Below, one piece after another: positions 772 to 64,000 of a stretch of DNA of 64,000 nucleotides. The stretch is from the NCBI RefSeq assembly GCF_013408925.1, contig NZ_JACCAB010000001.1:310001-374000 (forward strand), in the 5' to 3' direction. The notes below the pieces were generated by a model that saw only the letters and a list, made by a program, of their open reading frames with translations, did no database searches and was not told where the DNA came from. The stretch comes from Pedococcus badiiscoriae. Its GTDB lineage: Bacteria; Actinomycetota; Actinomycetes; Actinomycetales; Dermatophilaceae. The position numbers were made by a program, and so were the translations under genes. Positions within the stretch are counted from its first letter, which is position 1. Each line of letters starts with the position of its first letter.

Positions 772-1494
772 TCACCGTGGCTGCGCGAGACCGAGGGCCA
801 CGTCGAAGACGTGGGCCATGGCGGCATACCCCGCGTCGTTGGGGTGGAACGTGTCGGCCGCCAGCTTGCCGCGCCAGCTGCGGGGTCCGTGGGCTCGCAT
901 GTCGGCCACGACCAGCCGCCCCTCCCCTTCGCGCTGACGCAGCAGCGCCTCGACGCGCCGTGCCTCGCGGTGCGGGTTCGGGAGGTTGGCCACCACGGCG
1001 CCGTCCGGGAGGCCGTCGAGCAGCACGCTGAAGCGCTCAGTCAGACCGGACCGCCACCGTGGGGAGACGACGTCGTTGGAGCCGATGACCACGGTGACGA
1101 GGTCGGGGGCGAGCCCCGCGTCGAGCAGGTCACGCAGGGCCGGCAGCTGCTGGTCGATGACGTCCTGCACCCGGGCGCCGGTCACCGCCAGGTTGACCAC
1201 GCGGTGCGGACGACCCGCGGCCGCCAGGTGGTCGGCCAGCTGGCCGACCCAGCCCCGGTCAGGGGCGGACGCGCCGATCCCCTGGGTCATCGAGTCACCC
1301 AGGGCGACCCATAGCGGGTCCGCCCCCGGTCCGTCAGCCGCGAGGGCCGCGGCGTTGCCGGCGCGCCACGCCGCGGCATACGGCTGGGTCTGGCTGCCCA
1401 CGCTGGCAACACCGGGCAGCACCGCCGACAGCACCCTCATCACGACGCCGGGTGGACGCCCACTGGTGTTGTCGTAGTCGAAGGCGGTCGCCAC
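772..1494 (-). CDS. SGNH/GDSL-type hydrolase
   Basis: 240 residues. Block I 'ALGDSMTQG' carries the nucleophile Ser68, 'IGSNDVV' the oxyanion-hole Asn140, and 'DTFHPND' Asp214 and His217, so the catalytic set is complete. The family hydrolyses esters of lipids or acylated carbohydrates; the substrate is unknown. A short N-terminal hydrophobic stretch is not a convincing signal peptide, so it may be cytoplasmic or loosely membrane-associated. The start is GTG. It is followed upstream, only 29 bp away, by the end of the phosphoesterase gene, so the three minus-strand genes up to 4012 may be cotranscribed. Confidence 0.85.
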   Translation of the reverse strand: MATAFDYDNTSGRPPGVVMRVLSAVLPGVASVGSQTQPYAAAWRAGNAAALAADGPGADPLWVALGDSMTQGIGASAPDRGWVGQLADHLAAAGRPHRVVNLAVTGARVQDVIDQQLPALRDLLDAGLAPDLVTVVIGSNDVVSPRWRSGLTERFSVLLDGLPDGAVVANLPNPHREARRVEALLRQREGEGRLVVADMRAHGPRSWRGKLAADTFHPNDAGYAAMAHVFDVALGLAQPR

Positions 1495-1523
1495 CTCGGC
1501 ATCCTATGTCGGTGCCACCCACC

Positions 1524-2750
1524 TCAACGGTTGTAGACGTCGAGGCCGAACCGGTTGAGGCCTGCCTGGGCCGCATACCCGAGGTGCGCCCGGCCGAACA
1601 GGTCCTCGATGCTGGCCAGCAGCGAGTAGTGGTTGTACGAGGTGCTGCTGACACTGCCCGGGCGGACGAACGGTGACAGTGCGAGCGCGCCGACGCGACC
1701 GCCGCCCATCCCGGTGATGCCGGGCAGCGGGGTGTTCGGGCCGGGCCCTTCGCCGCAGCAGGCAGTGGCGTCGCTCTGCGGTCCGTCGGACTCGTCGAAC
1801 GTGATCAGCAGGAGGCCGTCACTCCGGTAGGCCGGCGAGGCCAGGATGGCCGGCACCGTCGCCTTGAGCCAGGCGTCCGCCGACGTCAGCCCGCCGGGCT
1901 GGCCGTCCACACAGGGGGTGTCGTGCCCGTCGTGGCACAGGTTGGGCGTGATGTAGGTCAGGTTGCGCGTGGTCGCGACCGACGCGAGGTCCTTGGTGAG
2001 CGCCGTGCTGTCGACGACGTGGGCGGCGCAGGAGGCCGGGTTGTCGATGATGGAGTGGAAGTACATGAACGGGTTGTGCCGGGTCGCATACTGGTCGCCG
2101 ACCTTCGCCTTCTGCGTGTCGTCAGCGGCGCCGACCGCGGGGTGCCGGCAGGGGGTGCCCATGTCCTCCATGTAGCCGCGCCAGGTCAGGCCGGCTGCCT
2201 GGAGCTGGCCCTGCAGGGTGGGCACCGTCGTGGGATAGACGCACCCGTCGCCGACGTACTGACCCGGGGCGACCGTGCCGGTCCCGGCGAAGTCACTGAA
2301 CGCCTGGCAGTCGCCCTGCGTCTGGGGGTTGGGACCCTGCCCGCTGACCTGGGCGATGTAGTTCGGCAGGCTGTTGTGGGCTGTGCCGTAGTACTGGCTG
2401 AGCAGGTTCCCCTGCGCCCGGAGGGTCTGGGACAGGTAGGGCGCGGCCGACCCGGGTCCCCAGGTCTCGTCGTAGCCCTTGTTCTCGAGGTTGATGACGA
2501 ACACGTGCTTGACCGGGGGCAGGTATGCCGCGGCCCTCGCCGCGGGCGCCGCCGCGGACTTGGCCGCGGGCTTGGCGGCGGGTGCGGCCGCGGCTCCCAG
2601 CGCGGTGGTCGTCGCGGTCGCCGCCACGACCACGAGGCCCACCAGGGCTGAAGCCACTGCGACGGCGAGGCGCCCTCGCCGACCGCGCAAGCGGCTACTC
2701 GGGCTGGTGCTCGGATTGGGGATGTGCGGGCTCGGGGTGCGGTCGGTCAT
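1524..2750 (-). CDS. Secreted phosphoesterase-family protein (phospholipase C / acid phosphatase-like)
   Basis: 408 residues from the ATG that overlaps the upstream stop codon. A Ser/Pro/Arg-rich N-terminus is followed by a long hydrophobic segment (about residues 30-55) and an Ala/Pro/Lys-rich linker, indicating export or membrane anchoring. The catalytic domain begins at 'VFVINLENKGYDETWG', the phosphoesterase (alkaline-phosphatase superfamily) metal-binding start, and later has 'LITFDESDG'. The family includes phospholipases C and acid phosphatases. It is directly coupled to the gene at 2750-4012 through a TGATG overlap. I infer extracellular phosphate-ester hydrolysis; the exact substrate is unknown. 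Confidence 0.8.
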   Translation of the reverse strand: MTDRTPSPHIPNPSTSPSSRLRGRRGRLAVAVASALVGLVVVAATATTTALGAAAAPAAKPAAKSAAAPAARAAAYLPPVKHVFVINLENKGYDETWGPGSAAPYLSQTLRAQGNLLSQYYGTAHNSLPNYIAQVSGQGPNPQTQGDCQAFSDFAGTGTVAPGQYVGDGCVYPTTVPTLQGQLQAAGLTWRGYMEDMGTPCRHPAVGAADDTQKAKVGDQYATRHNPFMYFHSIIDNPASCAAHVVDSTALTKDLASVATTRNLTYITPNLCHDGHDTPCVDGQPGGLTSADAWLKATVPAILASPAYRSDGLLLITFDESDGPQSDATACCGEGPGPNTPLPGITGMGGGRVGALALSPFVRPGSVSSTSYNHYSLLASIEDLFGRAHLGYAAQAGLNRFGLDVYNR

Positions 2751-4012
2751 CACAGGCTCCATCCGTGGGCTTTGGCGAGGTCCTTGAGCGCATGCCACTC
2801 CTCGTAGTCGGCCGTCCCCGCCGGCGGGCAGGGCGCGCTGACGAACGGGGGGACGGCATACCGGGGGGCGTGGGTGTTCGGCGCGCTGGCGAAGTCGAGC
2901 ACCTCCGCGAGGTTGCGGGCCGCGGCGTCACGAGGGGTGAGCGCGGGGAGCCCCCACCGCCACTCGATCATCTTCAGCACCGACGTGTGGTCGTACAGGT
3001 TCTTCGCGACGTGGGCGCGACGCGCGAGGGGGGAGACGACCAGGCAGGGCACCCGGAAGCCGCGCATGCCCCATGCGGGGTGGGCATCCGGGGCTGCGGT
3101 GGGGGCGACGTGGTCGAAGAAGCCACCCCACTCGTCGTAGTTGACGACCAGGACGGTCTTGTCCCAGCCGGGACCCGTGGTCACGGCGTTGTACACCTGG
3201 TCGAGGAAGTGCTGCCCGGCGCGGATGTCGGCGTGCGGGTGGTCGTCGGCGCTGGAGCCGGTCCCTTCGTCGAGGAACTTCGGGTCGACGAAGCTCACCG
3301 CAGGCAGCGTGCCGGCCGCGGCGTCGGCCAGGAACTGCGGGTAGGGCTTGGAGATGTCGAGGTACTTGCTGCCCCACAGCGCGGTGAAGGGCGTGTCGTA
3401 GTAGTAGTAGGTGCCCTTGACGCCAGCGGCGGCGAGCCGGTCCCAGATCGTGGGCATGGTCGCGATGGCGGTCGAGTTGTGGATGCGGTCGGTCTGCGCG
3501 GCGTGCTGGTAGAAGCGGTTCGGGTAGGTCTCGGCGAGGATGGCCGAGAAGTAGTTGTCGCAGACGGTCCAGTCGCGGGCCGCGTGGCCGTAGAACGCGA
3601 GGTCGGCGTCGGTGTAGTACCCGATGGCGAAGGTGTCGTTGTCGCCTGCCTTGAGCCAGCCGTCGCAGCGCCCGTTGTTGTACTCGACGCGACCCCCCTC
3701 GAACGAGTGGTCGGGGTCGGGGTGCGCGCAGCCCTGGAAGTCGGTCAGGTGGTGCGTCGTGTGTGGCACCCCGTACCGGTCGGTGTACGTCAGGCCGGCC
3801 TGGCGACCGCGCGCTCCGGGCAGCCAGCCGAGGTAGTGGTCGAACGACCGGTTCTCCATCATGACGACGACGACGTGCTCGATGCCGCTGCGGGCCGGGT
3901 TCGGCAGTGTGGTGCCGGCGGCGGACGCGGACGAGGACTCGGGCACGCCCAGGGCGGCCCCGCCCAGCGCTGCGCCAGCGCCGGCGAGAAGGTGTCTGCG
4001 AGTGATGGTCAT
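2750..4012 (-). CDS. Tat-exported phospholipase C-type phosphoesterase
   Basis: 420 residues starting at an ATG followed by a twin-arginine signal ('ITRRHLLAGAGAALGG', residues 3-18), which is why this start is preferred over the longer open frame. The mature domain has the diagnostic 'MMENRSFDHYLG' block (Asn54), the metal-binding start of bacterial phospholipase C / acid phosphatase proteins, plus 'NYDEWGGFFDHVAP' near the middle. Predicted to fold in the cytoplasm, be exported by Tat and hydrolyse phospholipids or other phosphodiesters. Its stop overlaps the start of the next phosphoesterase by one base, so the two are translationally coupled and probably supply phosphate together (inference). 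Confidence 0.9.
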   Translation of the reverse strand: MTITRRHLLAGAGAALGGAALGVPESSSASAAGTTLPNPARSGIEHVVVVMMENRSFDHYLGWLPGARGRQAGLTYTDRYGVPHTTHHLTDFQGCAHPDPDHSFEGGRVEYNNGRCDGWLKAGDNDTFAIGYYTDADLAFYGHAARDWTVCDNYFSAILAETYPNRFYQHAAQTDRIHNSTAIATMPTIWDRLAAAGVKGTYYYYDTPFTALWGSKYLDISKPYPQFLADAAAGTLPAVSFVDPKFLDEGTGSSADDHPHADIRAGQHFLDQVYNAVTTGPGWDKTVLVVNYDEWGGFFDHVAPTAAPDAHPAWGMRGFRVPCLVVSPLARRAHVAKNLYDHTSVLKMIEWRWGLPALTPRDAAARNLAEVLDFASAPNTHAPRYAVPPFVSAPCPPAGTADYEEWHALKDLAKAHGWSL

Positions 4013-4409: not shown

Positions 4410-5096
4410 TCAGGCCGAGGCGTTCCAGGTCTGGATCCGCCACCCGTTCTCGGCCTCGACGACCTCGGCCCAGTGGCAGTTGCCGAACCCGCCCAGCACC
4501 CGCCAGGCCGTCAGCCGGTCGAGGTCGACGAGCTCGGCGATGACCACCCGCCCGGTCACGCCGTGCGTCGCCACCACCGCCGTCTGGCCCGGAGGAAGGC
4601 TGTCGAGCAGGTCGTCCAGGGCGGCACGGACGCGCTGCGCCACGTCCGACAACGACTCGCCGTCCACCCCGCGCACGAAGTCCTCCCCGCGCAGGTGCCG
4701 CAGCCGTTCCTCCGGGAACTCGCTGCTCACCTGCTCGGTGGTCATGCCCGCCCACTGGCCGACGTGGATCTCACGCCACCGCGCGTCATAGCTGATCGGC
4801 ACGCCACACGCCCTGGCCACCTCCGCGCCGGTCTCCGCCGCCCGTTTCAGGTCGGAGGCGACCACCACGGAGGGCGCGTATGCCGCGAGCGCGCCGGCCG
4901 CGTCGCGCGCCTGCTCGCGGCCGAGCGACGACAGGTCGCTGTCGACCTGCCCCTGCCAGACGCCCCGGGCGTTGTCGTCCGTCTGGCCGTGCCGCAGCAC
5001 GATGACGCGGCGCCGACCAGAGGTCCTCGGAGTCGTCGAGGTCGTCGCAGCGGTCGGGGTCGTCGCAGCGGTCGAGGCCGACGCCTCGCCGCTCAT
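4410..5096 (-). CDS. Histidine phosphatase family protein (possible glucosyl-3-phosphoglycerate phosphatase)
   Basis: 228 residues. 'VIVLRHGQTDDN' (about residues 31-42) carries the catalytic RHG histidine, and 'VVATHGVTGRV' carries the second His of the phosphoglycerate mutase-like superfamily. The first 28 residues are a Ser/Thr/Ala-rich leader made of imperfect Thr/Ala repeats. The start ATG overlaps the rsfS stop (ATGA). In Mycobacterium the gene after nadD-rsfS is gpgP, which dephosphorylates glucosyl-3-phosphoglycerate for methylglucose polysaccharide synthesis; that role is possible here from position alone. A general phosphatase is the alternative. Confidence 0.85.
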   Translation of the reverse strand: MSGEASASTAATTPTAATTSTTPRTSGRRRVIVLRHGQTDDNARGVWQGQVDSDLSSLGREQARDAAGALAAYAPSVVVASDLKRAAETGAEVARACGVPISYDARWREIHVGQWAGMTTEQVSSEFPEERLRHLRGEDFVRGVDGESLSDVAQRVRAALDDLLDSLPPGQTAVVATHGVTGRVVIAELVDLDRLTAWRVLGGFGNCHWAEVVEAENGWRIQTWNASA

Positions 5097-5474: not shown

Positions 5475-6083
5475 CTACGTTCGTGCCGGTGCGCCGGCAG
5501 GTGAGCCGGCGGCATACAGGCGGTATTTGTTGACGTACTGGACGACGCCGTCGGGCACGAGGTACCAGACGGGTTCGGCGCGCTCGACGCGCGCCCGACA
5601 GTCGGTGGAGCTGATCGCCATGGCGGGGACCTCCTGCAAGGTGACCCGGTCGGCGGGCAGGCCGGACTCCGACAGGACGTACCCGGGGCGGGTGACACCG
5701 ATGAAGTGCGCGAGCTCGAACAGCTCGTCGGCGTCCTTCCAGGACAGGATCTGGGCCAGGGCATCGGCGCCGGTGATGAAGAAGAGCTCTGCGTCGGGCC
5801 GTTCGTGGTGCAGGTCGCGCAGGGTGTCGATCGTGTAGGTGGGTCCCGGGCGTTCGATGTCGACCCGGCTCACCGTGAAACGAGGGTTGGAGGCGGTCGC
5901 GACGACGGTCATGAGGTACCGGTGCTCCGGCGCGCTCACCTCGCGCTCGTCCTTCTGCCAGGGCTGGCCGGTGGGCACGAAGACGACCTCATCGAGCCCG
6001 AACCGGGTCTGGACTTCGGAGGCAGCCACGAGGTGGCCGTGGTGGATCGGGTCGAACGTCCCGCCCATCACCCCGAGCCGCAT
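5475..6083 (-). CDS. nadD: Nicotinate-nucleotide adenylyltransferase
   Basis: 202 residues. The nucleotidyltransferase signature '[11 protein letters not shown]' (residues 8-18, HxGH His14-His17) and the late '[10 protein letters not shown]' segment (ISSTxIR type) identify NadD, which adenylates nicotinate mononucleotide to deamido-NAD in NAD synthesis. The start is the ATG of 'MRLGVMGG', right at the beginning of the conserved Rossmann strand. The upstream small membrane gene ends 2 bp before it and rsfS follows 7 bp after, so an operon is almost certain. Confidence 0.95.
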
Positions 6084-6085
6084 GG

Positions 6086-8714: not shown

Positions 8715-8779
8715 GGGGGTTCATCCTGCCAGTTGGCGGTGGGGCAGCCCGACATGCCCGGGTATGCCGCGTCGAGACC

Positions 8780-10060
8780 TCACGCGCGGACCTGGCCGTC
8801 GCCCTCCACTATCCACTTGGTGGTGGTGAGCTCCGGGAGCGCCATCGGTCCCCTGGCATGCAGCTTCTGGGTGGAGATGCCGATCTCCGCGCCGAAACCG
8901 AACTCACCACCGTCGGTGAACCGGGTCGAGGCGTTGACCATGACGGCGGCGGCATCCACCTCGCTGGTGAACCGTCGGGCTGCCGCGCGGTCCTCGGTCA
9001 CGATCGCCTCGGTGTGGCCCGAGCCGTAGGTCCGGATGTGCTCGAGGGCCGCATCGAGGTCGGGGACGACCCGGACACTCATCTCCAGCGCGAGGTACTC
9101 GGTGGCGTAGTCCTCCTCGGTGACGCCCTGGTGGGCCACGCCGGCGGCATCTGCCGCGCCGCCCGACTCCGCGTCGGTGTGCAGGACCACCCCGGCACCT
9201 GAGAGCTCGGCCAGGACCTTGGGCAGGAAGTCCGCCGCGACCGCTTCGTGGACGAGCAGGGACTCGGCCGCGTTGCAGACGCTCGGCCGGTGGGTCTTGG
9301 AGTTGACCGTGATGGCCAGCGCCTTGTCGAGGTCCGCCGCCGCGTCCACGTAGACGTGGACGATGCCCACGCCGGTCTCGATGACCGGCACCGTCGACTC
9401 GGTCACGACGGTCTGGATGAGTCCCGCTCCCCCACGCGGGATGATCAGGTCGACGAGCCCCCGGGCGGTCAGCAGCGCACGCACGGCGTCACGGCCTCCC
9501 TCCAGCAGGGTGATCGCGTCGGCGGGCAGCCCCTGCGACTCCAGCCCGGCGCGCATCACGTCGACCAGCGCCCGGTTCGTCGACTCGGCGGCCGAACCTC
9601 CGCGCAGGATGACGGCGTTGCCGGACTTCAGGCCCAGCCCTGCCGCGTCCACGGTGACGTTCGGCCGAGCCTCGTAGACCATGCCGACGACCCCTATCGG
9701 CACCCGGACCTGGCGGATCTGCAGGCCGTTGGCCAGCGTCGAGCCCCGCACCACCTCGCCCACCGGGTCCGGCAGGGCGGCCACGTCGCGCAGTGCCTGG
9801 GCCACGCCGGCGAGCCGCTGCGGGTCGAGGGCCAGGCGGTCGAGGAGGCCCTGCGGCATACCCGACCCGCGGCCGCGCCCGAGGTCCTCGGCGTTGGCTG
9901 CCACGACCTGGTCCGTGGCGGCGTCGAGGCCGTCGGCGAGCGCGACCAGGGCCGCGTCCTTGTCGGCGCGGGACAGCAGCGCCAGTCGGCGCGAGGCCAC
10001 CCGCGCGGCGCGCGCGGCGGTGGCCACCTGCTCGACGGCAGCCTGGTCGATCTCAGCCAT
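8780..10060 (-). CDS. proA: Glutamate-5-semialdehyde dehydrogenase (gamma-glutamyl phosphate reductase)
   Basis: 426 residues, the usual ProA length. It reduces gamma-glutamyl phosphate with NADPH in the second step of proline synthesis. The catalytic Cys sits in '[13 protein letters not shown]', and '[18 protein letters not shown]' and '[23 protein letters not shown]' are ProA signature regions. Start is the ATG at 10060, before the '[11 protein letters not shown]' helix; the frame extends upstream but without similarity. proB, the kinase that makes its substrate, is nearby at 12013-13137 in the same orientation but separated by two plus-strand genes. Confidence 0.97.
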
Positions 10061-10163
10061 GCCCCAAGGGTATGCCGCGTCGGCGGACGCGAGTGGCGCC
10101 CGTCCGGACCGCAGGACGACAGGGCGGGGTGGTCCAGGGGCAGCCGGCTGGTTGAATGCGGGC

Positions 10164-11058: not shown

Positions 11059-11979
11059 ATGAGTTGGCTCCCCCGCGTCGGCAGCGTGCTGACGACCTCC
11101 CTGCTGGTGGCCACGCTGGCGGCCTGCGGGTCGGTCGGCACGGACGCGTCGGGCGGTTCCCCGGCGCCGAGCCCCTCGGGCGACCAGGACCTGGCCCACC
11201 GGGCGGCCCAGCTGGCCGACCGTTATGCCGCCGCGAAGGCGGAGGCGGCTCCCCCGGCACTCGACCTCGGGGACCAGCTCGAGCAGCAGGACGGCGACTG
11301 GGAGCCGGCTGTCGGCGAGAACGACAAGCTCGCCTGGCTCACCGGGCACCTCGTGGCGGTCGCCACACTCCCGGCCGCGCCCGGTCCCGTCATGGTGCTC
11401 ACCGGGGCGGGGCAAGGCGTCTCCTCCACCGTGATCTCGGCGGGTGCCGCCCTCGCCGCGATGACCGCGCGGCGCAGCAGCTGCGGCGGGTGCACCGACC
11501 TGGAGGTGACCGGGGCGACGCTGACCACGATGGACGTGCGCACCGCGGCCGGGACCGTCACCGTGCCAGCCTGGCGGTTCTCGCTGCGGGGCACCGCCGT
11601 GACGCTTCGGCGGGTGGCGGTGCCCCCGTCCGCGCTGGTTCGCACGCCAGTCCCCTTGACCCCCGCGCCCGGCGACGGCCTGCGCGCGGAGTCGTTCGAG
11701 CAGGCCCCCGGTGGCCGGACCCTCACCGTGAGCTTCACCGGCGCGCACGACGAGCCGGGCCCGTGTGGGGCCGACTACCGCGGGGTCGCGTTCGAGTCCG
11801 ACCGAGCCGTCGTCGTTGCGGTCCTCGAGCTCCCGCGGAAGTCGAGCGGCCAGGAGATCGCGTGCGCGGACGTCGGCGCCGGGCGCAGCGTCGAGGTCCC
11901 GCTGCGCCGTCCGCTGGGCGACCGGACCGTGCTCAGCCTGGCCGACGGGCAGTCGGTGGTGCAGGGACCAGCCCGGTGA
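11059..11979 (+). CDS. Secreted lipoprotein of unknown function
   Basis: 306 residues. A hydrophobic signal peptide ends in a lipobox 'LVATLAAC' with Cys at about residue 23, followed by a Ser/Gly/Pro linker, so it should be lipid-anchored outside the membrane. The remainder is Ala/Val-rich with two Cys pairs ('SSCGGC', and a later Cys in 'PCGADY' / 'EIACADV') that could form disulfides. I recognise no named domain. It lies 43 bp after pdxY in the same direction and ends 33 bp from the convergent proB stop. Confidence 0.75.
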   Translation: MSWLPRVGSVLTTSLLVATLAACGSVGTDASGGSPAPSPSGDQDLAHRAAQLADRYAAAKAEAAPPALDLGDQLEQQDGDWEPAVGENDKLAWLTGHLVAVATLPAAPGPVMVLTGAGQGVSSTVISAGAALAAMTARRSSCGGCTDLEVTGATLTTMDVRTAAGTVTVPAWRFSLRGTAVTLRRVAVPPSALVRTPVPLTPAPGDGLRAESFEQAPGGRTLTVSFTGAHDEPGPCGADYRGVAFESDRAVVVAVLELPRKSSGQEIACADVGAGRSVEVPLRRPLGDRTVLSLADGQSVVQGPAR

Positions 11980-12012: not shown

Positions 12013-13137
12013 CTAGAGGATGACGAGGTCGTCGCGGTGGACGACCTCGCGCTCGTACTCGGGACCGAGCTCCTTGGCCAGGTCGTGGGTCGAGCGGCCG
12101 AGCATGCCCGGCAGCTCTGCCGAGCTGTAGTTGACCAGCCCCCTGCCGACCACGCGCCCCTCGGGGGCGCACAGGTCCACCGGGTCGCCGTCGGAGAACG
12201 TGCCCTCGACGCCGGTGATCCCGGCAGGCAGCAAGGACGTCCGCCGCTCGGTCACGGCGCGGACGGCTCCGGCGTCGAGCAGCAGCCGGCCCATCGGAGT
12301 GGTTGCGTGGGCCAGCCACAGCTTGCGCGACGTGCGCCGCGAGCCGGTGGGGACGAACACCGTGCCGACGTCCTCGCCGGCGAGGGCCCGCTCGACCTGC
12401 GACGCGCTGGTGAGCACGGTGGTGATCCCGGCCGCGTTGGCGATGGAGGCCGCCTCGACCTTGGTGATCATGCCCCCGCTGCCGACGCTCGAACCCGTGC
12501 CCCCGATCGTGATCGCCTCCAGGCCCGCCCCACCGACCACGGTCGGCACGCGCGTCGCGCCCGCGCGACTCGGCGGCCCGTCATACAGCGCATCGACGTC
12601 GGTGAGCAGGACGAGCCCGTCCGCGTGCACGAGGTGGGCCACCAGGGACGCGAGCCGGTCGTTGTCGCCGAACCGGATCTCGTGGGTGGCCACGGTGTCG
12701 TTCTCGTTGACGATGGGCACGATGCCCAGCTCGAGCAACCGGTCCAGCGTGCGGCGGGCGTTCGTGTAGTGCGACCGCCGGGTCACGTCGTCGGCCGTGA
12801 GCAGCACCTGCCCCACCGTCAGCCCGTGGACGCCGAAGGCCCGCTGGTATGCCGCCACGAGGGCTCCCTGCCCCACGCTGGCCGCCGCCTGCTGGGTCGC
12901 GAGGTCCCACGGTCGCCTGGTCAGCCCCAAGGGCGCGATCCCCGCCGCGATGGCGCCCGAGGAGACGAGCACGACCTGCTGCCCGGCGAGGCGCCGGGCG
13001 GCCAGCACGTCCACGAGGGCCACCAGCCGCTCCTCGTCGAGGGCTCCTCCCCCCACGTCGGTCAGGCTCGACGAACCGACCTTGACCACGAGGCGCCGGG
13101 CACGCGCCACGTCGCCCCGGCGGTCAGCGGTGCTCAT
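12013..13137 (-). CDS. proB: Glutamate 5-kinase
   Basis: 374 residues. The amino-acid kinase domain starts at 'LVVKVGSSSLTD' (about 16-27); 'VNENDTVATHEIRFGDNDRLAS' is the ProB glutamate/ATP site and 'GSGGMITKVEAASIANAAGI' the C-lobe signature. The C-terminal 90 residues are a PUA domain. It phosphorylates glutamate in the first, proline-inhibited step of proline synthesis. It ends the minus-strand obg-proB run: its ATG is 10 bp after the obg stop, suggesting co-transcription, the order also seen in Mycobacterium. Confidence 0.97.
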   Translation of the reverse strand: MSTADRRGDVARARRLVVKVGSSSLTDVGGGALDEERLVALVDVLAARRLAGQQVVLVSSGAIAAGIAPLGLTRRPWDLATQQAAASVGQGALVAAYQRAFGVHGLTVGQVLLTADDVTRRSHYTNARRTLDRLLELGIVPIVNENDTVATHEIRFGDNDRLASLVAHLVHADGLVLLTDVDALYDGPPSRAGATRVPTVVGGAGLEAITIGGTGSSVGSGGMITKVEAASIANAAGITTVLTSASQVERALAGEDVGTVFVPTGSRRTSRKLWLAHATTPMGRLLLDAGAVRAVTERRTSLLPAGITGVEGTFSDGDPVDLCAPEGRVVGRGLVNYSSAELPGMLGRSTHDLAKELGPEYEREVVHRDDLVIL

Positions 13138-53998: not shown

Positions 53999-55975
53999 AT
54001 GCCGAACCGTCTGGCCGACTCGACCTCGCCGTACCTGTTGCAGCACAAGGACAACCCGGTCGACTGGTGGCCCTGGTGTCCGGAGGCCTTCGCCGAGGCG
54101 CGCGAGCGTGACGTCCCCGTCCTGCTGAGCGTCGGGTATGCCGCGTGCCACTGGTGTCATGTGATGGCCCACGAGTCCTTCGAGGACGATGAGGTGGCGC
54201 GAGTGCTCAACGCGGGTTTCGTTGCGGTGAAAGTGGATCGCGAGGAGCGACCGGACATCGACGCGGTGTACATGGCGGCCACGACGGCCCTGACCGGCCA
54301 CGGCGGCTGGCCGATGACCTGCCTGCTCACTCCCGACGGCGACCCGTTCTTCGCCGGCACCTACTTCCCGAAGGCACAGTTCCTGCAGCTCCTGGCCGGC
54401 GCCACCGACGCCTGGACCACCCAGCGCGCCCGCGTCCTCGACAGCGGCGCCCACATCGCCTCGCGGTTGCGGGAGCTGTCCGACGCCGGCGGTGGACAGG
54501 TCCTCGACGCCGACGCCCTCGACGCGGCCGTGCTGCAGCTGCGCGGCCAGTTCGACCATGGCGCGGCGGGCTTCGGCGGAGCGCCGAAGTTCCCGCCCTC
54601 GATGGTGCTGGAGTTCCTGCTGCGACACCACGCCCGGACCGGCTCCGAGGACGCCCTGGCCATGGCTGCCAGCACCTGCGAGGTGATGGCACGGGGCGGC
54701 ATCTACGACCAGCTTGCGGGTGGCTTCGCGCGGTACTCGGTCGACGCACGCTGGGTGGTGCCGCACTTCGAGAAGATGCTCTACGACAACGCCCAGCTGC
54801 TGCGGCTCTACACGCACCTGCACCGGACCACCGGCGACCCCCTCGCTCGACGGGTGGCGCTGGAGACGGCCGAGTTCCTGCTGCGCGACCTGCGCACCGA
54901 CGAGGGCGGCTTCGCCTCGGCGCTCGACGCCGACACCGACGGGGTCGAGGGCCTCACCTACGCCTGGACCCCGGCCCAGCTCGTCGAAGTGCTCGGCGAG
55001 GACGACGGCCGACGGGCCGCCTCCCTGCTGTCGGTCACGGACGCGGGCACCTTCGAGCACGGGTCATCGACGCTCCAACTGCTCACCGACCCCGAGGACG
55101 ACGCCTGGTGGGCGGTCACCCGCGAGCGCCTCTTCGAGGCCCGGAAGCTGCGTCCGCAGCCCGGTTGCGACGACAAGGTCGTCACGTCGTGGAACGGCCT
55201 GGCCATCGCCGGGCTGGCCGACGCCGGCACCCTGCTCGAGCGCCCCGACCTCGTCGACGCAGCCGTGCGCTGCGCCGAGTTCGTCACCGCCACCCACGTC
55301 GTGGACGGGCGTCTCCGCCGCACGTCGCGGGGCGGCGTGGTCGGCACCGCGGCCGGGGTCGCCGACGACTACGGCAACCTCGCAGAGGGGCTGCTCGCCC
55401 TTCACCAGGCCACCGGCGATGCCACCTGGCTTGGGGCGGCCCGCGGCCTGCTCACCACCGCGGTCGAGCGGTTCTCGGCCGACGACGGCGGGTTCCACGA
55501 CACGAGCGACGACGCCGAGGTCCTGTTCACCCGCCCACGAAGCCCAGCCGACAACGCGGAGCCGTCCGGGCAGTCGGCCCTGGCCGGCGCCCTGCTCACC
55601 TGCTCGGCACTCACCGGCGACCCGGGGCTGCGCGATCGGGCCGACGCGGCCCTGGCCGTGGCGGGACGGCTCGCCGTGCGCGACCCGCGCTTCGCCGGCT
55701 GGACGCTGTCGGTGGCCGAGGCGGCGCTCTGCGGCCCCCTGCAGGTAGCCGTCGTCGGGACCGGGGCAGACGCCGACGCCCTGGCCGAGACCGCGCGTCG
55801 CTCGGCCTCACCCGGCCTGGTCGTGGTGCAGGGCGCACCCGACGCAGCGGGCCACCCGCTGCTCGCGCAGCGGCCTCTGGTCGACGGCCACGCCGCGGCA
55901 TACGTGTGCCGGGGATTCGTGTGCGACGCGCCGGTGACGGACGTCGCCGCGCTCACCGCCGCGTTGGCTCGCTGA
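53999..55975 (+). CDS. Thioredoxin-domain protein of the DUF255/YyaL (spermatogenesis-associated protein 20-like) family
   Basis: 658 residues. The N-terminal thioredoxin-like domain has '[10 protein letters not shown]' (Cys50-x-x-Cys53), and '[13 protein letters not shown]' and 'GTYFP' follow. The central and C-terminal parts match the YyaL glycosidase-like fold ('[28 protein letters not shown]', 'GLTYAWTP', '[11 protein letters not shown]'). Role unproven in bacteria. ATG at 53999 is chosen because it precedes '[15 protein letters not shown]', with GAGGGAG upstream. Converges on the next gene with a 23-bp overlap. Confidence 0.92.
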
Positions 55976-56673: not shown

Positions 56674-57429
56674 TCAGAGCAGCAACGAGCGGTATGCCGG
56701 CTCCGCGGCTTCCAGCGCGCGCTCCCCCGCCAGCGGGTCCACGAACAGGGCAGTCGCCCAGACGTCGGCCCACAGCAGGCTCGGCCCCCAGACGGTCGCC
56801 GAACCGTCGCGGGCGATGACCCTGCCGGTCCGGGGGTCCACGATGTGCGCCCCCCGGGCGGCCGTGCCGGAGGTCGCCAACCCACCGCTGCGCAGCGGGA
56901 TCGTCGCGGCGACCTCCCCCGCCTCGCGGGGGTCCTGCACCCCGACCAGCCAGGTGCTCGGTGAGGTCGCGTGGCCGGCGCCGGCGAGGAGGTCTCCTCC
57001 GGCGTTGACGCACCAGGAGACTCCCGGCACGTGCCGCAGGTGCATCGCGGCCTGCTCGACGGCCCACCCCTTGACCAGCCCCGTCGGGTCGTAGGCGGCC
57101 CCGGTGGCGGCCCTGTCGAACGAGGCGCTGAACAGGCCGTCCGTGCGGCGTTCCGCCTCGGCGCACAGCCGCTCCACCTCGGCGAGCCAAGGATGTGCCT
57201 CGGCCGGGTCGAGGTCACCGCGCCGCAGCCGCATCAGGTCGGAGTCCTCGCGCCACGTGCTGAACACCGAGTCGACCCGGCGCAGCACGCCGAACACCTG
57301 CTCCACCGCCGTCGCGACCTGCGGATCCTCCAGCCCCGCGTCCGACTGCGCCCGCACGTGGATGGAGACCGGCATACCCATGACCTGTTCGACAAAGGCC
57401 CGCCGCGGGGTACTGCTCGCCACGGTCAC
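56674..57429 (-). CDS. apbE: FAD:protein FMN transferase ApbE-family protein
   Basis: 251 residues. 'VNAGGDLLAGAGH' and 'GTAARGAHIVDPRTGR' match the ApbE FAD-binding and Mg-binding blocks, with 'DRAATGAAYDPTGLVKGWAVEQA'. ApbE covalently attaches FMN to Ser/Thr in SGAT motifs. The upstream gene (57426-57968) is an FMN-binding protein with just such a motif, so it is the likely target. GTG start overlaps that gene's stop (GTGA). A signal peptide is not apparent. Confidence 0.92.
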   Translation of the reverse strand: MTVASSTPRRAFVEQVMGMPVSIHVRAQSDAGLEDPQVATAVEQVFGVLRRVDSVFSTWREDSDLMRLRRGDLDPAEAHPWLAEVERLCAEAERRTDGLFSASFDRAATGAAYDPTGLVKGWAVEQAAMHLRHVPGVSWCVNAGGDLLAGAGHATSPSTWLVGVQDPREAGEVAATIPLRSGGLATSGTAARGAHIVDPRTGRVIARDGSATVWGPSLLWADVWATALFVDPLAGERALEAAEPAYRSLLL

Positions 57430-57976: not shown

Positions 57977-59446
57977 CTAGTACTCGAACCGTTCGAGGTG
58001 GACGTTGGCGGCCGGGACCCCACAGTCGAGGGCGGCCTGCCGGGCAGCCTCCATCCAGGCGGGCGCCCCGCAGAGGAAGACATCGCGCTCGGCGACGTCC
58101 GGCACCAGCTGGGCCAGCCCGGCCGCGTCGGTCAGGTGCGCGGCCGCGGCCGGCAGCCAGGTGTCGCGTCCTGGCACCCGGTGCCCTTCGACGGTCACGT
58201 AGCGGGCGCCCCGGGCAGTCGCGAGCCGGAACATCTCCTCGCCGAGCACGAACTGCTCGGGGGTGCTGGCGCGGTGGATCACCACCACGTCGCCTGGGTC
58301 CTGGTCGAGGCCCTCGAGAAGGGCCCGGATCGGCGTGATCCCGATCCCGGCACCCATCAGCAGCACCTTGCGGCGGGTGCGGACTCCGGGGTGCAGACGG
58401 CCGTACGGCCCCTCGACGAGGACCCGCGTCCCCGGCTGCAGACTGGCAAGGCGCTGCGTGCCGTCCCCGACATGCGCCGCAGTCACCCGCAGGTGGCGTC
58501 CGTCCGGGGCCGCCGACAGCGAGTACGGGTTGGCCCGGGTCCAGCCGGGTCCGTCGACGAAGCGCCACTGGAAGAACTGACCGGCTGCGGGGCGCATCCG
58601 GGCCACGCCGGGGCCACCGACGACGACCGTGGTCACGCCGGGTGCCTCCTCGTGCACCGCGACGACCCGCAGCGGCGCCCGCAGGGACCGGACCAGGGGC
58701 AGCCCCACCCGGAAGACGAGCACGGTCGCGGCGCAGGCGGCATACAGGCCCCACCAGAAGACGGTCGACGCCGTCGAGGCGAGGAACTCCTGCCCGGTCC
58801 ACAGCTGGTGCGGGAGGGCCAGCCCGGCCCCGAGATAGCCGTAGAGGTGGATGAGGTGCCAGGACTCGTACCGCAGCCGGCGGCGGGCCTTGCGCACCGA
58901 GGTGACGACGACCAGGCACAGGGCGACCGTGCCGGCCAGCGCCAGCAGCATCCCGGGGTAGTTCAGGACGAAGTCGACGATGGTGCCCCACAACCCCAGC
59001 GGCGAGGCCGCGGCATACCCGAGGGTGATGAGCACGATGTGGGCCCACAGGAGGTTGAAGGACGTGAACCCGACGAGCCGGTGGGTGCGGGCGAGCTCGT
59101 CCTGACCCCAGGCCTGTTCGAACCACGGCACCCGGGCCATCAGGAAGACCTGCACGAGCAACAGAGCCGAGGCGACCAGCCCGGTCAGCCGCCCCGTGCT
59201 GGTGAGGGCGCCCGAGAGCGAGCCGAGATCCTGGATGCCGCCGTGCTGCACCCACAGGGCGGTGACCCACAGCAGCACCAGCCAGAACGCGCTGAGCGAC
59301 GCATCGCGCCACCAGCGGGGCACGACGCGGACGGGGCGCCTGACGGCACGACGCTCATCGGCGCGGCCGGCTTCGCTGCGGTATGCCGCGTGCGCGGCGT
59401 CTGTGCGGCGCGGCACCGCGTGGGGCGGCAGGTCGGTGGTGGTCAC
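57977..59446 (-). CDS. Ferric-reductase-like transmembrane protein with FAD/NAD(P)H domains
   Basis: 489 residues. An N-terminal ferric-reductase-like membrane domain (about six helices, 40-240, with His pairs in 'LLWAHIVLI' and 'SWHLIHLYGYLG' for heme) is followed by a ferredoxin-NADP reductase type domain: 'NPYSLSAAPDGRHLRV' FAD motif, 'LLMGAGIGITPIRALLEGL' NAD(P) motif, and 'CGAPAWMEAARQAAL'. GTG at 59446 is a reasonable start; the frame extends to 59488. It passes electrons from NAD(P)H, via FAD and heme, possibly to the FMN-binding protein (inference). Confidence 0.9.
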   Translation of the reverse strand: MTTTDLPPHAVPRRTDAAHAAYRSEAGRADERRAVRRPVRVVPRWWRDASLSAFWLVLLWVTALWVQHGGIQDLGSLSGALTSTGRLTGLVASALLLVQVFLMARVPWFEQAWGQDELARTHRLVGFTSFNLLWAHIVLITLGYAAASPLGLWGTIVDFVLNYPGMLLALAGTVALCLVVVTSVRKARRRLRYESWHLIHLYGYLGAGLALPHQLWTGQEFLASTASTVFWWGLYAACAATVLVFRVGLPLVRSLRAPLRVVAVHEEAPGVTTVVVGGPGVARMRPAAGQFFQWRFVDGPGWTRANPYSLSAAPDGRHLRVTAAHVGDGTQRLASLQPGTRVLVEGPYGRLHPGVRTRRKVLLMGAGIGITPIRALLEGLDQDPGDVVVIHRASTPEQFVLGEEMFRLATARGARYVTVEGHRVPGRDTWLPAAAAHLTDAAGLAQLVPDVAERDVFLCGAPAWMEAARQAALDCGVPAANVHLERFEY

Positions 59447-59530: not shown

Positions 59531-60277
59531 TCAGCGGGTGGCGGGTTTCGCCACGATCCGGCCGTCGACCAGCACCAGGTCCGCCGCCTCGTGGCCGCCG
59601 ACGACCAGCCGGGCATTGGCCTCGTCGGACCGGTCGACCCAGGCCGTCGCCTCCTGCGGCGGACGTCCGCTCTCCACGTGACGGTCGATGAGGCGACGGC
59701 GGCGTTCGTCGCCGGGCAAGGCACAGAACCACACCTCGTCGAGCAGTCCCCGCACCGGACGCCACGCCGGGTCGTCGAGCAGCAGGTAGTTGCCCTCGGT
59801 CACGACCAGGTCCGCTCCGGAGCCGACCTCGATGGCCTCGGCCTCGGGCTCCCCCACCCCGTGGTCGAACGCCGGAGCCCGCACCACCGCGCGCGGCGAG
59901 GCACGGACGGCGGCGAGCACCGCGGCATAGGCCTCGACGTCGAAGGTGTCAGGCGCTCCCTTGCGACCCAGCCGACCCAGGCGCTGGAGCTCGGCGCCGG
60001 GGAGGTGGAAGCCGTCCATCGGCACGTGCGCGACGCGGCCGGCCAGCCGGGGGTCGGCGGCGGCCGCGCGCAGCAGCGTCGCGACCAGGGTCGTCTTGCC
60101 CGCGCCGGGTGGCCCCGCGATGCCGAGGACCCGACGGCGGCCGGCGGAGGCCTCCGACACGAGGCGCGCGCACCGCTCCAGGAGGATCACCAGCGACGGC
60201 ACTGATGGCACAGCAGGCGGCGCCGGTCCCAGCGGCGCTGGAGGTGCAGACGGCGCTGGGAGGTCCGGATCGCCCAT
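59531..60277 (-). CDS. P-loop nucleoside/nucleotide kinase-like protein (uridine kinase family)
   Basis: 248 residues. A Pro/Ala-rich N-terminus precedes the Walker A 'GIAGPPGAGKTTLVATLL' (about 55-72), 'MDGFHLPGAELQRLG', 'VVTEGNYLLLDDPAW' and a C-terminal 'RRRLIDRHVESGR' lid region, all like the uridine kinase/phosphoribulokinase/pantothenate kinase group. Substrate not resolvable; several actinobacterial proteins like this are annotated only as nucleoside/nucleotide kinase family. ATG at 60277 follows an upstream purine-rich stretch. Confidence 0.85.
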   Translation of the reverse strand: MGDPDLPAPSAPPAPLGPAPPAVPSVPSLVILLERCARLVSEASAGRRRVLGIAGPPGAGKTTLVATLLRAAAADPRLAGRVAHVPMDGFHLPGAELQRLGRLGRKGAPDTFDVEAYAAVLAAVRASPRAVVRAPAFDHGVGEPEAEAIEVGSGADLVVTEGNYLLLDDPAWRPVRGLLDEVWFCALPGDERRRRLIDRHVESGRPPQEATAWVDRSDEANARLVVGGHEAADLVLVDGRIVAKPATR

Positions 60278-61075: not shown

Positions 61076-61843
61076 CTACCTGCCCAGCCAGCCGTCGACG
61101 ATCGCGAGGACGTCGAGCAGCTCGTGGGCCTGTGCGTCAGGGGTCACGTCGACGGGCACCACCTGGGACGCCGGGATGTCGCTGTGCGGCACCCAGATCG
61201 CGCGCATGCCGATCTGCTGCGGGCCGTGGACGTCCTCGTACAAGCGGTCGCCGACGTAGACGGCCTCCTGGGGCTGCACGCCGACGGCCGCGCAGGCCGC
61301 GCGGAAGGCGTCCGGGTGCGGCTTCACCACGTGGATCTCCGAGGAGTACACGTCGCCGTCCACGAGGTCGAGGACGCCGTCGCGCTGGAACACCTCCCGG
61401 TGGTACTCACGGCTCCAGATCGTGTTGGAGAGCACCCCGACCTTGAGCCCTCGGTCGTGCAGCCCCTCCCACAGCGGGCGGACCTGCGGGTCGGTGTGCG
61501 TGTGCGGCTCCCAGAACCGCCGGTATGCCGCGAGCGCGAGCAGGTGCCGGTCGTGGTCCGGGTCGACGCCCGCGTCCTCGAGGATCGCCTCGATCGACGC
61601 GCTCTCGTGGCTGTCCCTCCCCCGGGCCCAGGCGCGCTCCTCGGCAGCGTGGATCCGCAGCGCCAGCGAGTCCGCCTCGGCGAGGTCGTCGACCGGCATC
61701 TGCGGGTCCTCGACGGGCAGGCCGTGGACCTGGCGGGCGAACACCCGCCACTGCTGCGGGAGGTCGACGTCGTGCCAGGGGGTCAGCGTCCCACCCCAGT
61801 CGAAGATGACCGCCCTCAGCGGGGCCGTCGGGGACGCCGCCAT
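61076..61843 (-). CDS. HAD-superfamily hydrolase
   Basis: 255 residues. Motif I is 'VIFDWGGTLTPWHD': the nucleophile Asp is present but the usual second Asp is replaced by Gly (DWG instead of DxD), as seen in a group of actinobacterial HAD proteins. Motif II is 'VLSNT', motif III 'VVKPHPDAFRAACAAV' with Lys, motif IV 'YVGDRLYEDVHGPQQIGM'. Likely phosphatase, but the Gly may alter chemistry. The ATG overlaps the proS stop (TGATG), so it is coupled to proS. Confidence 0.88.
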   Translation of the reverse strand: MAASPTAPLRAVIFDWGGTLTPWHDVDLPQQWRVFARQVHGLPVEDPQMPVDDLAEADSLALRIHAAEERAWARGRDSHESASIEAILEDAGVDPDHDRHLLALAAYRRFWEPHTHTDPQVRPLWEGLHDRGLKVGVLSNTIWSREYHREVFQRDGVLDLVDGDVYSSEIHVVKPHPDAFRAACAAVGVQPQEAVYVGDRLYEDVHGPQQIGMRAIWVPHSDIPASQVVPVDVTPDAQAHELLDVLAIVDGWLGR

Positions 61844-63642
61844 CAGGACGCGCTGCCGGGCACCCCGGCGCCGCTGACCTCGCGGACGACCTCGGACACG
61901 ACGTCCTGCACCGGCACCTCCCGGCGCTCGCCGGTGGCGCGGTCCTTGATCTCGACGACGCCGTGCTCCAGGGACTTGCCGACCACGACGATCGTCGGGA
62001 CGCCGATCAGCTCGGAGTCCTTGAACTTCACCCCGGGGCTGACCTTCTGGCGGTCGTCGTAGAGCACCGACAGCCCGGCCGCCTCGAGCGCCCGGGTGAT
62101 CTCCTCGGACTTGGTGAAGACCTCGGGGTCGCGGGTGACGTCCTTGCCGGTGGCCACCACGTGCACGTCGACCGGGCTGATCTCGCGCGGCCAGCGCAGC
62201 CCCAGCTCGTCGTGGTTGCCCTCGGCGACGCACGCCACCGCGCGGGACACCCCGACGCCGTAGGAGCCCATGACGACCGTCTGCAGCTTGCCGTTCTGGT
62301 CCAGCACCTTGAGGTCGAGCGCCTCGGCGTACTTGGTGCCGAGCTGGAAGATGTGTCCCATCTCGATGCCGCGCGCGGACTCCAGACCGTGGCCACAGCT
62401 CGGGCACGCGTCGCCGGGCCGCACGTCCGCGGCCTCGATCGTGCCGTCGGCAGTGAAGTCGCGGCCGGCCACCAGGTCGATGACGTGCTTGCCGGACTCG
62501 TCGGCGCCGGTGACCCAGCGGGTGCCCTCGGCCACCCGCGGGTCGAGCAGGTAGCGGATCTTCGAGGCGGACTCCGACCCGAGCGCGCCCGGCCCGATGT
62601 ACCCCTTGACGAGGGCCGGGTTGGCCGCGAAGTCCTTCTCCTCGAAGGCTTCCACCGCGGCCGGGTCCACCTGCGCGCCGAGCCGCTTCTCGTCGATCTC
62701 GCGGTCGCCCGGCACGCCGATGGCCAGCGGCTCACGGGTGCCGTCGGGGTGGACGAGGGTGACGATGACGTTCTTGAGGGTGTCGCCCGCCGCCCAGGGC
62801 CGGTCCTCGCGCGGGAAGTGCGCGTTGAGGTGGGCCACCAGCGTCTCGATGGTGGGGGTGTCCGGAGTGGCCTCGACGTGCGCTGCGGGCACGTCGGCAT
62901 ACGGCACGGGGTCCGGGACCGGGACCCGGACGGCCTCGACGTTCGCGGCATACCCGCAGTTCGGGCAGCGGACGTAGGTGTCCTCGCCGTTCTCGGCGGT
63001 GGCGAGGAACTCCTCGCTCTTGCTCCCGCCCATGGCGCCGGCCATCGCCTGGACGATGACGTAGTGGAAGCCGAGGCGGTCGAAGATGCGGATGTAGGCG
63101 TCGCGGTGCAGCTGGTAGGCCTTGTCGAGGCCGGCGGCGTCGAGGTCGAAGGAGTAGGAGTCCTTCATGACGAACTCGCGGCCGCGCAGCACGCCGGCCC
63201 GCGGACGCGCCTCGTCGCGGTACTTGGTCTGGATCTGGTAGATCGCCAGCGGCAGGTCCTTGTAGGACGAGTACATGTCCTTGACCGCGAGCGTGAACAT
63301 CTCCTCGTGGGTCGGGCCGAGGAGGTAGTCAGCGCCCTTGCGGTCCTGCAGGCGGAAGATGTTGGGGCCGTACTCGGTCCAGCGCCCGCTCGCCTCGAAG
63401 GGCTCCTTGGGCAGCAGCGCCGGGAACAGCAGCTCCTGGGCGCCGATCTCGTCCATCTCCTCGCGCACGATGGTCTCGACCTTGCGCAGCACCCGCAGCC
63501 CCAGGGGCAGCCAGGTGTAGATGCCCGGGCTCACCCGACGGATGTAGCCCGCCCGCACGAGCAGCCGGTGGCTCGGCACCTCGGCATCGGCCGGGTCCTC
63601 GCGAAGGGTTCGCAGGAACAGGGTCGACATGCGCAGGGCCAC
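61843..63642 (-). CDS. proS: Prolyl-tRNA synthetase (bacterial type)
   Basis: 599 residues. The class II core ('[21 protein letters not shown]', '[21 protein letters not shown]', '[34 protein letters not shown]' in broken form) surrounds an inserted editing (INS) domain about residues 230-400, and a C-terminal anticodon-binding domain ends in '[21 protein letters not shown]'. It charges tRNA-Pro. GTG at 63642 is chosen because GAGGAG lies 6 bp upstream; ATG at 63630 is the alternative. Ends coupled to the HAD gene. Confidence 0.97.
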
Positions 63643-63763
63643 GTGGCACTCCTCGGTTGGTGGACAACCCCCAGAGGATATCGGTGGGTATGCCGTGGGC
63701 TCACCACGGTTTCCACGGCGCCGTGCGCGGGGGTGCGCTCAGGCGCCTCTCGAGAACTTGGCG

Positions 63764-64000
63764 TCAGCGTCCCGCGGCCCGCAGGGCGGTGCGGATCAAC
63801 GGGAGCTGCAGTGGCAGCCGGGCCACGGTGCCGGCGAAGGCGGCCCGGGCGGCCGGGGTCGCCCTGCGCTGGGCCCGCTTGCCGTAGTTGGCGCTCATCT
63901 GGACGTTGCCGGGCAGGATCGCCAGGAGCAGCCCGGCACTGGCCCAGCCGGCATACCGGCGGGTGCGGGGGTGGAGCAGTCCTGCCGCACAAGCCAGCTC
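63764..64000 (-). CDS. DoxX-like membrane protein, 5' end beyond the window (partial)
   Basis: The last 78 codons of a minus-strand gene are visible, open to the window edge. The sequence 'ELACAAGLLHPRTRRYAGWASAGLLLAILPGNVQMSAN' in broken form has the pattern of DoxX-family membrane proteins, including the final hydrophobic helix and 'PGNVQM'. A TATGCCG copy (63949) lies inside it. The gap between it and proS (63643-63763) holds only another TATGCCG copy at 63687. Confidence 0.65.
   Translation of the reverse strand, partial: ELACAAGLLHPRTRRYAGWASAGLLLAILPGNVQMSANYGKRAQRRATPAARAAFAGTVARLPLQLPLIRTALRAAGR

Follow-up and report, generated by a model that had tools for sequence, protein, structure and literature searches.

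An octamer abundant in one actinobacterial family as a putative polar DNA-uptake word of Flp/Tad-dependent natural transformation

INTRODUCTION

To our knowledge, the uptake words known so far belong to the Pasteurellaceae and the Neisseriaceae, both of which are Gram-negative. The uptake signal sequence (USS) of H. influenzae is present in about 1,471 copies at a spacing of about 1 kb without orientation bias around the chromosome, and molecular drive has been proposed for it (PMC1939737, PMC7811141). Uptake by H. influenzae is independent of USS orientation (PMC1939737), and the distribution of the DNA uptake sequence (DUS) of the Neisseriaceae has been used to detect integrated elements (PMC7371117). 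In M. luteus, both tad loci are required for transformation (PMC4322843). Here we describe GTATGCCG, an 8-bp word found at high density in a 64,000-nucleotide stretch of the Pedococcus badiiscoriae genome (bases 310001-374000 of 3,386,878 bp, a single contig; hereafter the window) and enriched in much of the family, and we weigh the reading that it is a DNA-uptake word linked to Flp/Tad-dependent natural transformation. Genomes compared are denoted by G numbers and loci or stretches by L numbers.

RESULTS

Excess of the octamer over composition and codon usage

The first-pass annotation of the window had reported about 46 copies of TATGCCG, nearly evenly divided between the strands and in several-fold excess, which force the rare TAT and ATA codons into genes, and both observations were borne out. 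TATGCCG occurred in 48 copies between positions 822 and 63955, compared with a mean of 2.05 (standard deviation 1.47) and a maximum of 6 in 100 dinucleotide shuffles. As G preceded 45 of the 48 copies, the unit was taken to be the 8-mer GTATGCCG; T preceded two of the remaining copies and C preceded one. The octamer, with 22 copies on the forward and 23 on the reverse strand, was expected only 1.1 times under an order-2 Markov model and had the highest order-2 z in the window among the listed 8-mers with more than one occurrence.

Throughout the genome, GTATGCCG was present in 963 forward and 971 reverse copies (1,934 in total, or one per 1.75 kb), compared with 28 forward and 32 reverse copies of the reversed word, which served as the control. 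We then used a sample of 464 kb, composed of the window and 20 stretches of 20 kb around the chromosome, in which our own codon-usage script called 390 genes (87% coding). The sample contained 282 copies, 36 times the order-2 expectation, and the excess held against codon usage as well. Coding DNA had 224 copies, compared with a mean of 18.7 and a maximum of 29 when synonymous codons were shuffled within genes (200 shuffles), a 12-fold excess, and non-coding DNA had 55 copies against 1.9 expected, a 29-fold excess; the densities were 0.56 and 0.94 per kb, respectively. The refuting outcome named by the first-pass annotation, a count close to Markov or codon-shuffled values or an excess due to dicodon bias alone, was not obtained. 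Of the TAT codons in the sample, 112 of 253 lay inside GTATGCCG, as did 17 of 35 ATA codons, and 112 of 130 sense-strand coding copies were in one frame, encoding Tyr-Ala. When pooled, the 24 one-mismatch neighbours of the word were present in coding DNA at 0.91 of the number expected from the codon shuffles; a single neighbour, with C as the first letter, was found 17 times against 4.7 under the order-2 model. Coverage was even (index of dispersion 0.97 over 20 stretches), no bias in location inside genes was found among 209 copies, and a weak downstream preference, approximately C-G-T-G-S-N-C, was observed at 129 non-coding sites pooled from nine genomes.

Strand symmetry and same-strand avoidance

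When the strand of the copies was mapped around the chromosome, they proved to be symmetric. Neither the complete genome, nor 21 regions sampled along the chromosome, nor the 86 family genomes enriched for GTATGCCG (see below), with 82,758 forward and 82,971 reverse copies in total, showed a replication-strand bias.

The spacing between copies was strand-specific. For the 307 copies in 23 segments of the P. badiiscoriae genome (504 kb), 78 adjacent copies were on the same strand and 206 on opposite strands (p = 1.7e-14). The observed/expected ratio of same-strand pairs was 0.12 below 200 bp, 0.41 at 200-400 bp, 0.55 at 400-1000 bp, 0.79 at 1-1.5 kb, and about 1 beyond, whereas opposite-strand pairs were not depleted over the same distances (0.96-1.36 of expectation). 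The same-strand fraction of GTATGCCG was 0.275, compared with a minimum of 0.43 among 46 other non-palindromic 8-mers of 230-400 copies, and instability of short direct repeats was set aside as the source of the avoidance because these control words did not show it. In eight further word-bearing genomes, 96 same-strand and 162 opposite-strand neighbours were counted in the pooled data (p = 5e-5). The related word GGATGCCG of genome G026, one of the dialects described below, had 25 same-strand and 60 opposite-strand neighbours (p = 0.0002), and the same-strand deficit was not significant for the dialect words of G126 (23 vs 36) and G069 (17 vs 22). Convergent and divergent GTATGCCG pairs closer than 800 bp numbered 102 and 137, respectively (p = 0.028), a difference that we do not interpret. 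It seems that a nearby second copy is dispensable on the same strand and not on the other. Because this avoidance, which reaches about 1 kb, concerns copies of the same strand and spares those of opposite strands, reading of the word seems to be polar; the word would then be read on a single strand or along a single direction.

Spread in the family and conservation of sites

Enrichment was defined as a copy number at least threefold that of the reversed control together with a density of 50 or more copies per Mb. By this definition, 86 of the 149 genomes of the family, belonging to 31 of 53 genera, were enriched for GTATGCCG and 63 were not. In P. badiiscoriae and much of the family, the word recurs about every 1 to 3 kb. 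Outside the family, none of 273 genomes of the order reached both values (297 order genomes, 24 of them in the family; table read by eye), which limits the enrichment to one family, taken here to be the Intrasporangiaceae/Dermatophilaceae and allies. Three genera were mixed for enrichment, and in one of these (g35) two genomes fell narrowly below the ratio. The status of the word differed inside one genus between G069 and G096, G069 having another word. On an InfB tree, 12 to 13 changes of the enrichment label were needed, and the InfB protein of the window's genome was closest, among the named entries, to that of Pedococcus bigeumensis (98% over 644 columns). Among the named InfB loci, those of Pedococcus, Knoellia, Terrabacter, Nostocoides jenkinsii, Metallococcus, Flexivirga, Ornithinimicrobium, and Serinicoccus carried GTATGCCG; those of Cellulomonas, Brachybacterium, Janibacter, Dermacoccus, and several Phycicoccus had few copies or none.

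Conservation at orthologous positions was assessed in ten relatives over window positions 22001-50000, and many sites were kept. L001 kept 12 of 16 aligned sites (36% of aligned 8-mers identical, p = 0.0017), L002 kept 9 of 13 (33%, p = 0.008), Knoellia koreensis (L015) kept 10 of 12 (22%, p = 1e-5), and L004 kept 6 of 12 (20%, p = 0.02). Five other relatives together kept 9 of 28 sites, and the tenth, L003, is considered in the Discussion.

Competence genes and an operon of the tad-1 layout

ComEC was found in 145 of 149 family genomes, and comEA was called beside comEC in 18 of the 20 neighbourhoods fetched. Word-bearing and word-free genomes were not separated by the presence of ComEC, by the alignment columns of comEA and comEC (18 and 20 genomes), by the presence of T2SSF (146 of 149 genomes), or by the compact tad locus C, for which 12 stretches were set side by side. 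In G069 (L132), comEC was called as two adjacent pieces, a possible frameshift. In G014, which has neither the TadG marker nor the word, the T2SSF match of the compact tad locus (G014:C1:713912-714262) contains an internal TGA. The type IVa pilus marker PilM was found in 5 of 149 family genomes, and neither in the P. badiiscoriae genome nor in 8 others of the genus; a type IVa pilus reader was rejected on these grounds.

The Tad loci of 17 genomes were grouped into three kinds by their T2SSF positions. Operon B has the gene order tadA-tadB-tadC-flp-tadE-tadE-tadG, which is the layout of M. luteus tad-1, the likeness being judged from the layout and from the N-terminal pilin sequences given in PMC6370729. 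Also present are a second, compact tad locus and comEA/comEC. Of 25 genomes examined, 19 had operon B complete and with its genes in this order, the exceptions being P. badiiscoriae itself (G000), G026, G037, G069, G088, and G092, and in G126 tadE2 was in two pieces. In 19 of the 25 genomes, the stretch that contains operon B also had a match to the FtsK/SpoIIIE family; G000, G057, G060, G129, and G092 had none, and in G069 the match was no more than a distant fragment. The small pilin TadE2 of operon B (for example, L149:7720-8190) has a C-x4-C loop in most of 22 aligned loci, and this loop might, speculatively, be a DNA contact.

The TadG profile of operon B (A2) matched in 135 of 149 genomes, and the match of G061 (E = 3.5e-4) was counted as absent. 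Among the 131 genomes at least 90% complete, none of the 10 without TadG was enriched for GTATGCCG, compared with 73 of the 121 with TadG, which include 4 fragmentary matches (Fisher p = 1.8e-4, uncorrected for kinship). When the four fragmentary genomes were moved to the absent group, 2 of 14 were enriched.

Breaks and recombinases in operon B

In the P. badiiscoriae genome, tadA of operon B matched only from residue 233 and adjoined a serine recombinase (L147:6610-8628; G000:C1:2422610-2424628). The 5ʹ part of tadA was not found in the preceding 44.1 kb. These 44.1 kb, a single stretch whose left end was not found, contained 5 copies of GTATGCCG against about 25 expected. In G088, a recombinase followed tadC and the pilin genes lay about 10 kb further on; in G069 and G026, tadC was broken near residue 256, with a recombinase adjoining in G069; and in G037 operon B was found only as fragments. 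Competence genes are disrupted by mobile elements in many species (PMC4774983), and the recombinases and breaks in operon B, which follow this pattern, support, without proving, a role of operon B in transformation here.

Dialects of the word

A blind scan was performed on 29 genomes (40-140 kb each), in which the score of an 8-mer was the smaller of two z values, one for coding and one for non-coding DNA. The set comprised 12 genomes with GTATGCCG in numbers (ten enriched by the above definition, G015 and G099 just under the ratio), 12 with a TadG match and few copies, and 5 without TadG. GTATGCCG ranked first in 9 of the 12 bearing genomes (scores 6.1-11.2). The scan missed it in the other three, G015, G081, and G124, of which the last two have few copies. 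Six of the 12 low-copy genomes in which TadG was matched had another word with a score above 5 (Table 1), mostly one or two letters from GTATGCCG. The top scores in the five genomes without TadG were 2.7-3.5.

These dialect words mostly fit GNAYGNCG, with the exception of CGAAGGGG, were roughly strand-symmetric, and were scattered on a 20-genome tree. Smaller samples suggest GTATG[ACG]CG for Flexivirga (66 kb) and GAATGCCG for a single assembly (L033, 12 kb). CGAAGGGG was also present at two named Janibacter loci. The Janibacter loci and G126 (L018, L039, L125, L134, L141, L151, L155-L158) share a different word, approximately GCGAAGGGG, which was roughly strand-symmetric, and in G126 opposite-strand word pairs closer than 100 bp numbered 9 against 2.1. 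In G037 and G102 the top word matched a relative's word despite a low score; in G037 (L209) it was still CGAAGGGG, with a score of 4.0, though operon B is fragmented there. In G057, CGATGCGG was found 84 times against 25.5, in coding DNA only, and in G134 CTGTGGAC was found 15 times against 0.6 in non-coding DNA, which is unexplained.

Table 1. Copies of the word in the window (window positions), top-scoring dialect words of the blind scan, and interruptions of operon B
Feature	Position or genome	Strand	Score
GTATGCCG	822..829	-	
GTATGCCG	1374..1381	-	
GTATGCCG	2523..2530	+	
GTATGCCG	2854..2861	-	
GTATGCCG	4878..4885	+	
GTATGCCG	5510..5517	-	
GTATGCCG	8762..8769	+	
GTATGCCG	9854..9861	-	
GTATGCCG	10070..10077	+	
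TATGCCG after T, incomplete word	11224..11230	+	
GTATGCCG	12847..12854	+	
GTATGCCG	14802..14809	-	
GTATGCCG	15600..15607	+	
GTATGCCG	17243..17250	-	
GTATGCCG	19794..19801	-	
GTATGCCG	22196..22203	+	
GTATGCCG	24201..24208	+	
GTATGCCG	25626..25633	-	
GTATGCCG, copy cited by the first-pass annotation near 25801	25802..25809	+	
GTATGCCG	25961..25968	-	
GTATGCCG	27998..28005	+	
GTATGCCG	28912..28919	+	
GTATGCCG	32629..32636	-	
GTATGCCG	33734..33741	+	
GTATGCCG	34791..34798	-	
GTATGCCG	37029..37036	-	
GTATGCCG	37949..37956	+	
GTATGCCG	39439..39446	-	
GTATGCCG	40019..40026	+	
GTATGCCG	42061..42068	-	
TATGCCG after T, incomplete word	42109..42115	-	
GTATGCCG	42635..42642	+	
GTATGCCG	44376..44383	-	
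GTATGCCG	45099..45106	+	
GTATGCCG	50390..50397	+	
GTATGCCG	54136..54143	+	
GTATGCCG	55896..55903	-	
GTATGCCG	56692..56699	+	
GTATGCCG	57370..57377	-	
GTATGCCG	58738..58745	-	
GTATGCCG	59011..59018	-	
GTATGCCG	59381..59388	+	
TATGCCG after C, incomplete word	59923..59929	-	
GTATGCCG	61523..61530	+	
GTATGCCG	62895..62902	-	
GTATGCCG	62946..62953	-	
GTATGCCG	63688..63695	+	
GTATGCCG	63949..63956	-	
Dialect top word GGATGCCG	G026		15.1
Dialect top word GTACGCCG	G040		9.8
Dialect top word CGAAGGGG	G126		8.8
Dialect top word GTACGGCG	G069		7.2
Dialect top word GGCGTACG	G024		6.1
Dialect top word GTACGGCG	G023		5.2
Operon B interruptions (G088, G069, G026)	L153:9265-11478 with L197:500-1977; L200:11415-12883; L198:15796-16536		

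DISCUSSION

The density of the word had been likened at first to that of uptake or chromosome-organising words. A chromosome word polar with respect to replication (KOPS, SRS, or Chi at forks) is not supported, in view of the strand symmetry, and uptake, itself putative, is retained as the best fit. We regard it as somewhat probable that GTATGCCG is a polar self-recognition (DNA-uptake) word of Flp/Tad-dependent natural transformation in P. badiiscoriae and much of its family. A putative uptake word fits best with the density, the symmetry, the dialects, the limitation to one family, the scarcity in the 44.1-kb stretch, and the lack of enrichment in the ten genomes (at least 90% complete) without TadG.

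We propose that the competence machinery, a Flp/Tad-pilus system of the M. luteus kind together with ComEA/ComEC, would prefer word-bearing DNA. Word-bearing alleles would be imported and recombined more often than word-free alleles, and because of this GTATGCCG would have accumulated genome-wide by transformation-biased drive; dialects would have arisen by drift in some relatives. To judge from the spacing, one copy would serve one strand or direction over about 1 kb, and the reader would act with polarity, either reading one strand or starting transport or recombination in one direction. We infer that the reader is part of the competence machinery and that the bias arises at uptake or at a step just after it, with transformation driving the spread. 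The fuller statement, in which an actinobacterial octamer is read strand-specifically by a Flp/Tad competence system, perhaps on single-stranded DNA or during one-way transport, dialects limit exchange, and mobile elements enter the pilus operon repeatedly, is offered tentatively, with doubt slightly outweighing belief.

Several observations weigh against an uptake word tied to operon B. G017 and G092, both at least 90% complete, are enriched with a missing or fragmentary TadG, and the incomplete genomes G085 and G118 are enriched without a TadG match. The word-free G066, counted as lacking TadG, has 310 contigs and four T2SSF matches, so part of operon B may remain. On the other side, 48 of 130 genomes with a full TadG match are not enriched for GTATGCCG, and the remaining 6 of the 12 low-copy genomes with TadG had no word scoring above 5 (top scores 3.8-4.5); a score of about 4.5 is taken as the noise level because some top words of these six look unrelated. 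On a 40-genome comEC tree the TadG absences amount to three events, all word-free and none in the reverse direction, which are too few for significance. The covariation of pilins with dialects gave p = 0.027 for TadE2 and p = 0.018 for the control, TadA. As tadA of the P. badiiscoriae genome is truncated beside a recombinase, a recent breakage must be assumed. Same-strand avoidance is absent in G060 (19 same vs 20 opposite) and G119 (13 vs 13) and for the dialect of G040 (42 vs 37). L003 keeps only 1 of 11 aligned GTATGCCG sites; of the lost sites, three read GTACGCCG and two GCATGCCG, and GTACGCCG is found 6 times in L003 against 1.5 expected, as if GTATGCCG were decaying there. Finally, the spacing of GTATGCCG is orientation-specific and USS uptake is orientation-independent; polarity is therefore not among the classical properties of a USS.

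Chi and the KOPS/SRS words (FtsK-orienting polar sequences/SpoIIIE recognition sequences) are 8-bp polar words read by motors on DNA, and Chi serving fork repair is strand-skewed. A pilus-independent, Chi-like recombination signal, which would switch a helicase-nuclease (AdnAB or another enzyme) from degradation to recombination, could let GTATGCCG accumulate as word-bearing incoming self DNA survives. Same-strand avoidance with a range of about 1 kb is what would be expected for an enzyme arriving from one side, and the length of eight letters is that of E. coli Chi. Nevertheless, the word lacks strand bias along the chromosome (21 regions, 86 genomes), by which replication-polar words and a fork Chi were rejected. 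RecC was found in 60 of 149 family genomes, many of them unenriched, in 1 of 9 genomes of the genus, and not in P. badiiscoriae itself; as this distribution does not match that of GTATGCCG, RecBCD is not the reader, and a RecBCD-Chi was rejected. The association with tad-1 would also be left without a reason, and we judge a Chi-like signal for incoming DNA unlikely, if still worth serious thought as the main rival.

Selection on the chromosome itself for an organising or modification word (HIP1-like, a site for a nucleoid protein, or the target of a solitary methyltransferase) would agree with the even coverage and with the conservation of orthologous sites in several relatives. HIP1 is a palindromic octamer, however, and GTATGCCG is not palindromic; strand-specific spacing would be unexpected for an ordinary double-stranded protein site, and the presence of the word varies within one genus (G069 vs G096). 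We consider such a word improbable.

A shade less probable again is a KOPS/SRS-like polar word read by the FtsK/SpoIIIE translocase beside tadA and acting in transformation, not in segregation. The FtsK/SpoIIIE-family matches in 19 of 25 operon B stretches and the spacing polarity would agree with it, as would the finding that M. luteus transformation fell at least 1000-fold when the FtsK-family gene beside tad-1 carried a point mutation (PMC8467076). Against it stand the lack of replication-strand bias, the domains of the sole protein scanned (from G068), which has FHA and FtsK_SpoIIIE and no match to Pfam FtsK gamma, and the failure to find an FtsK-family gene around tadA of P. badiiscoriae and of the word-bearing G060 and G129. 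A compositional, codon, or dicodon artefact without function, to which the predominance of the Tyr-Ala frame among sense copies might have pointed, is rejected as practically negligible in view of the 29-fold non-coding and 12-fold codon-shuffle excesses, the neighbours without overall excess, the dialects, and the strand-specific spacing.

If an uptake word is the correct reading, self-recognition in transformation would not be confined to outer-membrane bacteria and would operate with a Tad pilus instead of a type IVa pilus. The word would further help to single out actinobacteria in which natural transformation is likely, and the dialects would limit gene exchange between genera. The strand-specific spacing would provide a new handle on the mode of action of uptake words, and about five dialects are supplied for mapping the reader.

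Among known systems, GTATGCCG is distinguished from Chi and KOPS/SRS by its lack of replication-strand bias, from Chi also by the absence of RecC from its own genome (RecB and RecD were not searched for), from KOPS/SRS also by the lack of an FtsK gamma domain in the one neighbouring protein scanned, and from HIP1 in that it is not its own reverse complement. In its working it would probably be DUS/USS-like, without being a proven member of either class, from which the pilus type and probably the strand-specific spacing set it apart. In gonococci, DUS shows a strand preference on single strands. Like the Pasteurellaceae USS, GTATGCCG has copies on the scale of thousands, a similar density, and no strand bias along the chromosome, and it differs in the word itself and in the phylum of its host. 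Like the Neisseriaceae DUS, it occurs in many exact short copies in coding and intergenic DNA, is restricted to a family, and has dialects (PMC3630211), and, as for DUS and USS, it is scarce in an inserted stretch (one stretch, 5 vs about 25). Unlike DUS, the word is 8 bp long with a putative uptake role, and its host is an actinobacterium with Tad/Flp loci and without PilM; the DUS reader, ComP, is a minor pilin of the type IVa pilus, and only 5 of 149 family genomes have PilM. A Tad minor pilin could possibly take a ComP-like role. Among the matches listed in open-access literature (titles and the starts of abstracts), there was no actinobacterial uptake word, and a search with the letters of the word listed unrelated matches. 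The term 'uptake sequence' has no occurrence in the two M. luteus transformation papers (PMC4322843, PMC8467076). It is the Flp/Tad transformation system of M. luteus that the machinery resembles, in the tad-1 gene order, in the second compact tad locus, and in comEA/comEC.

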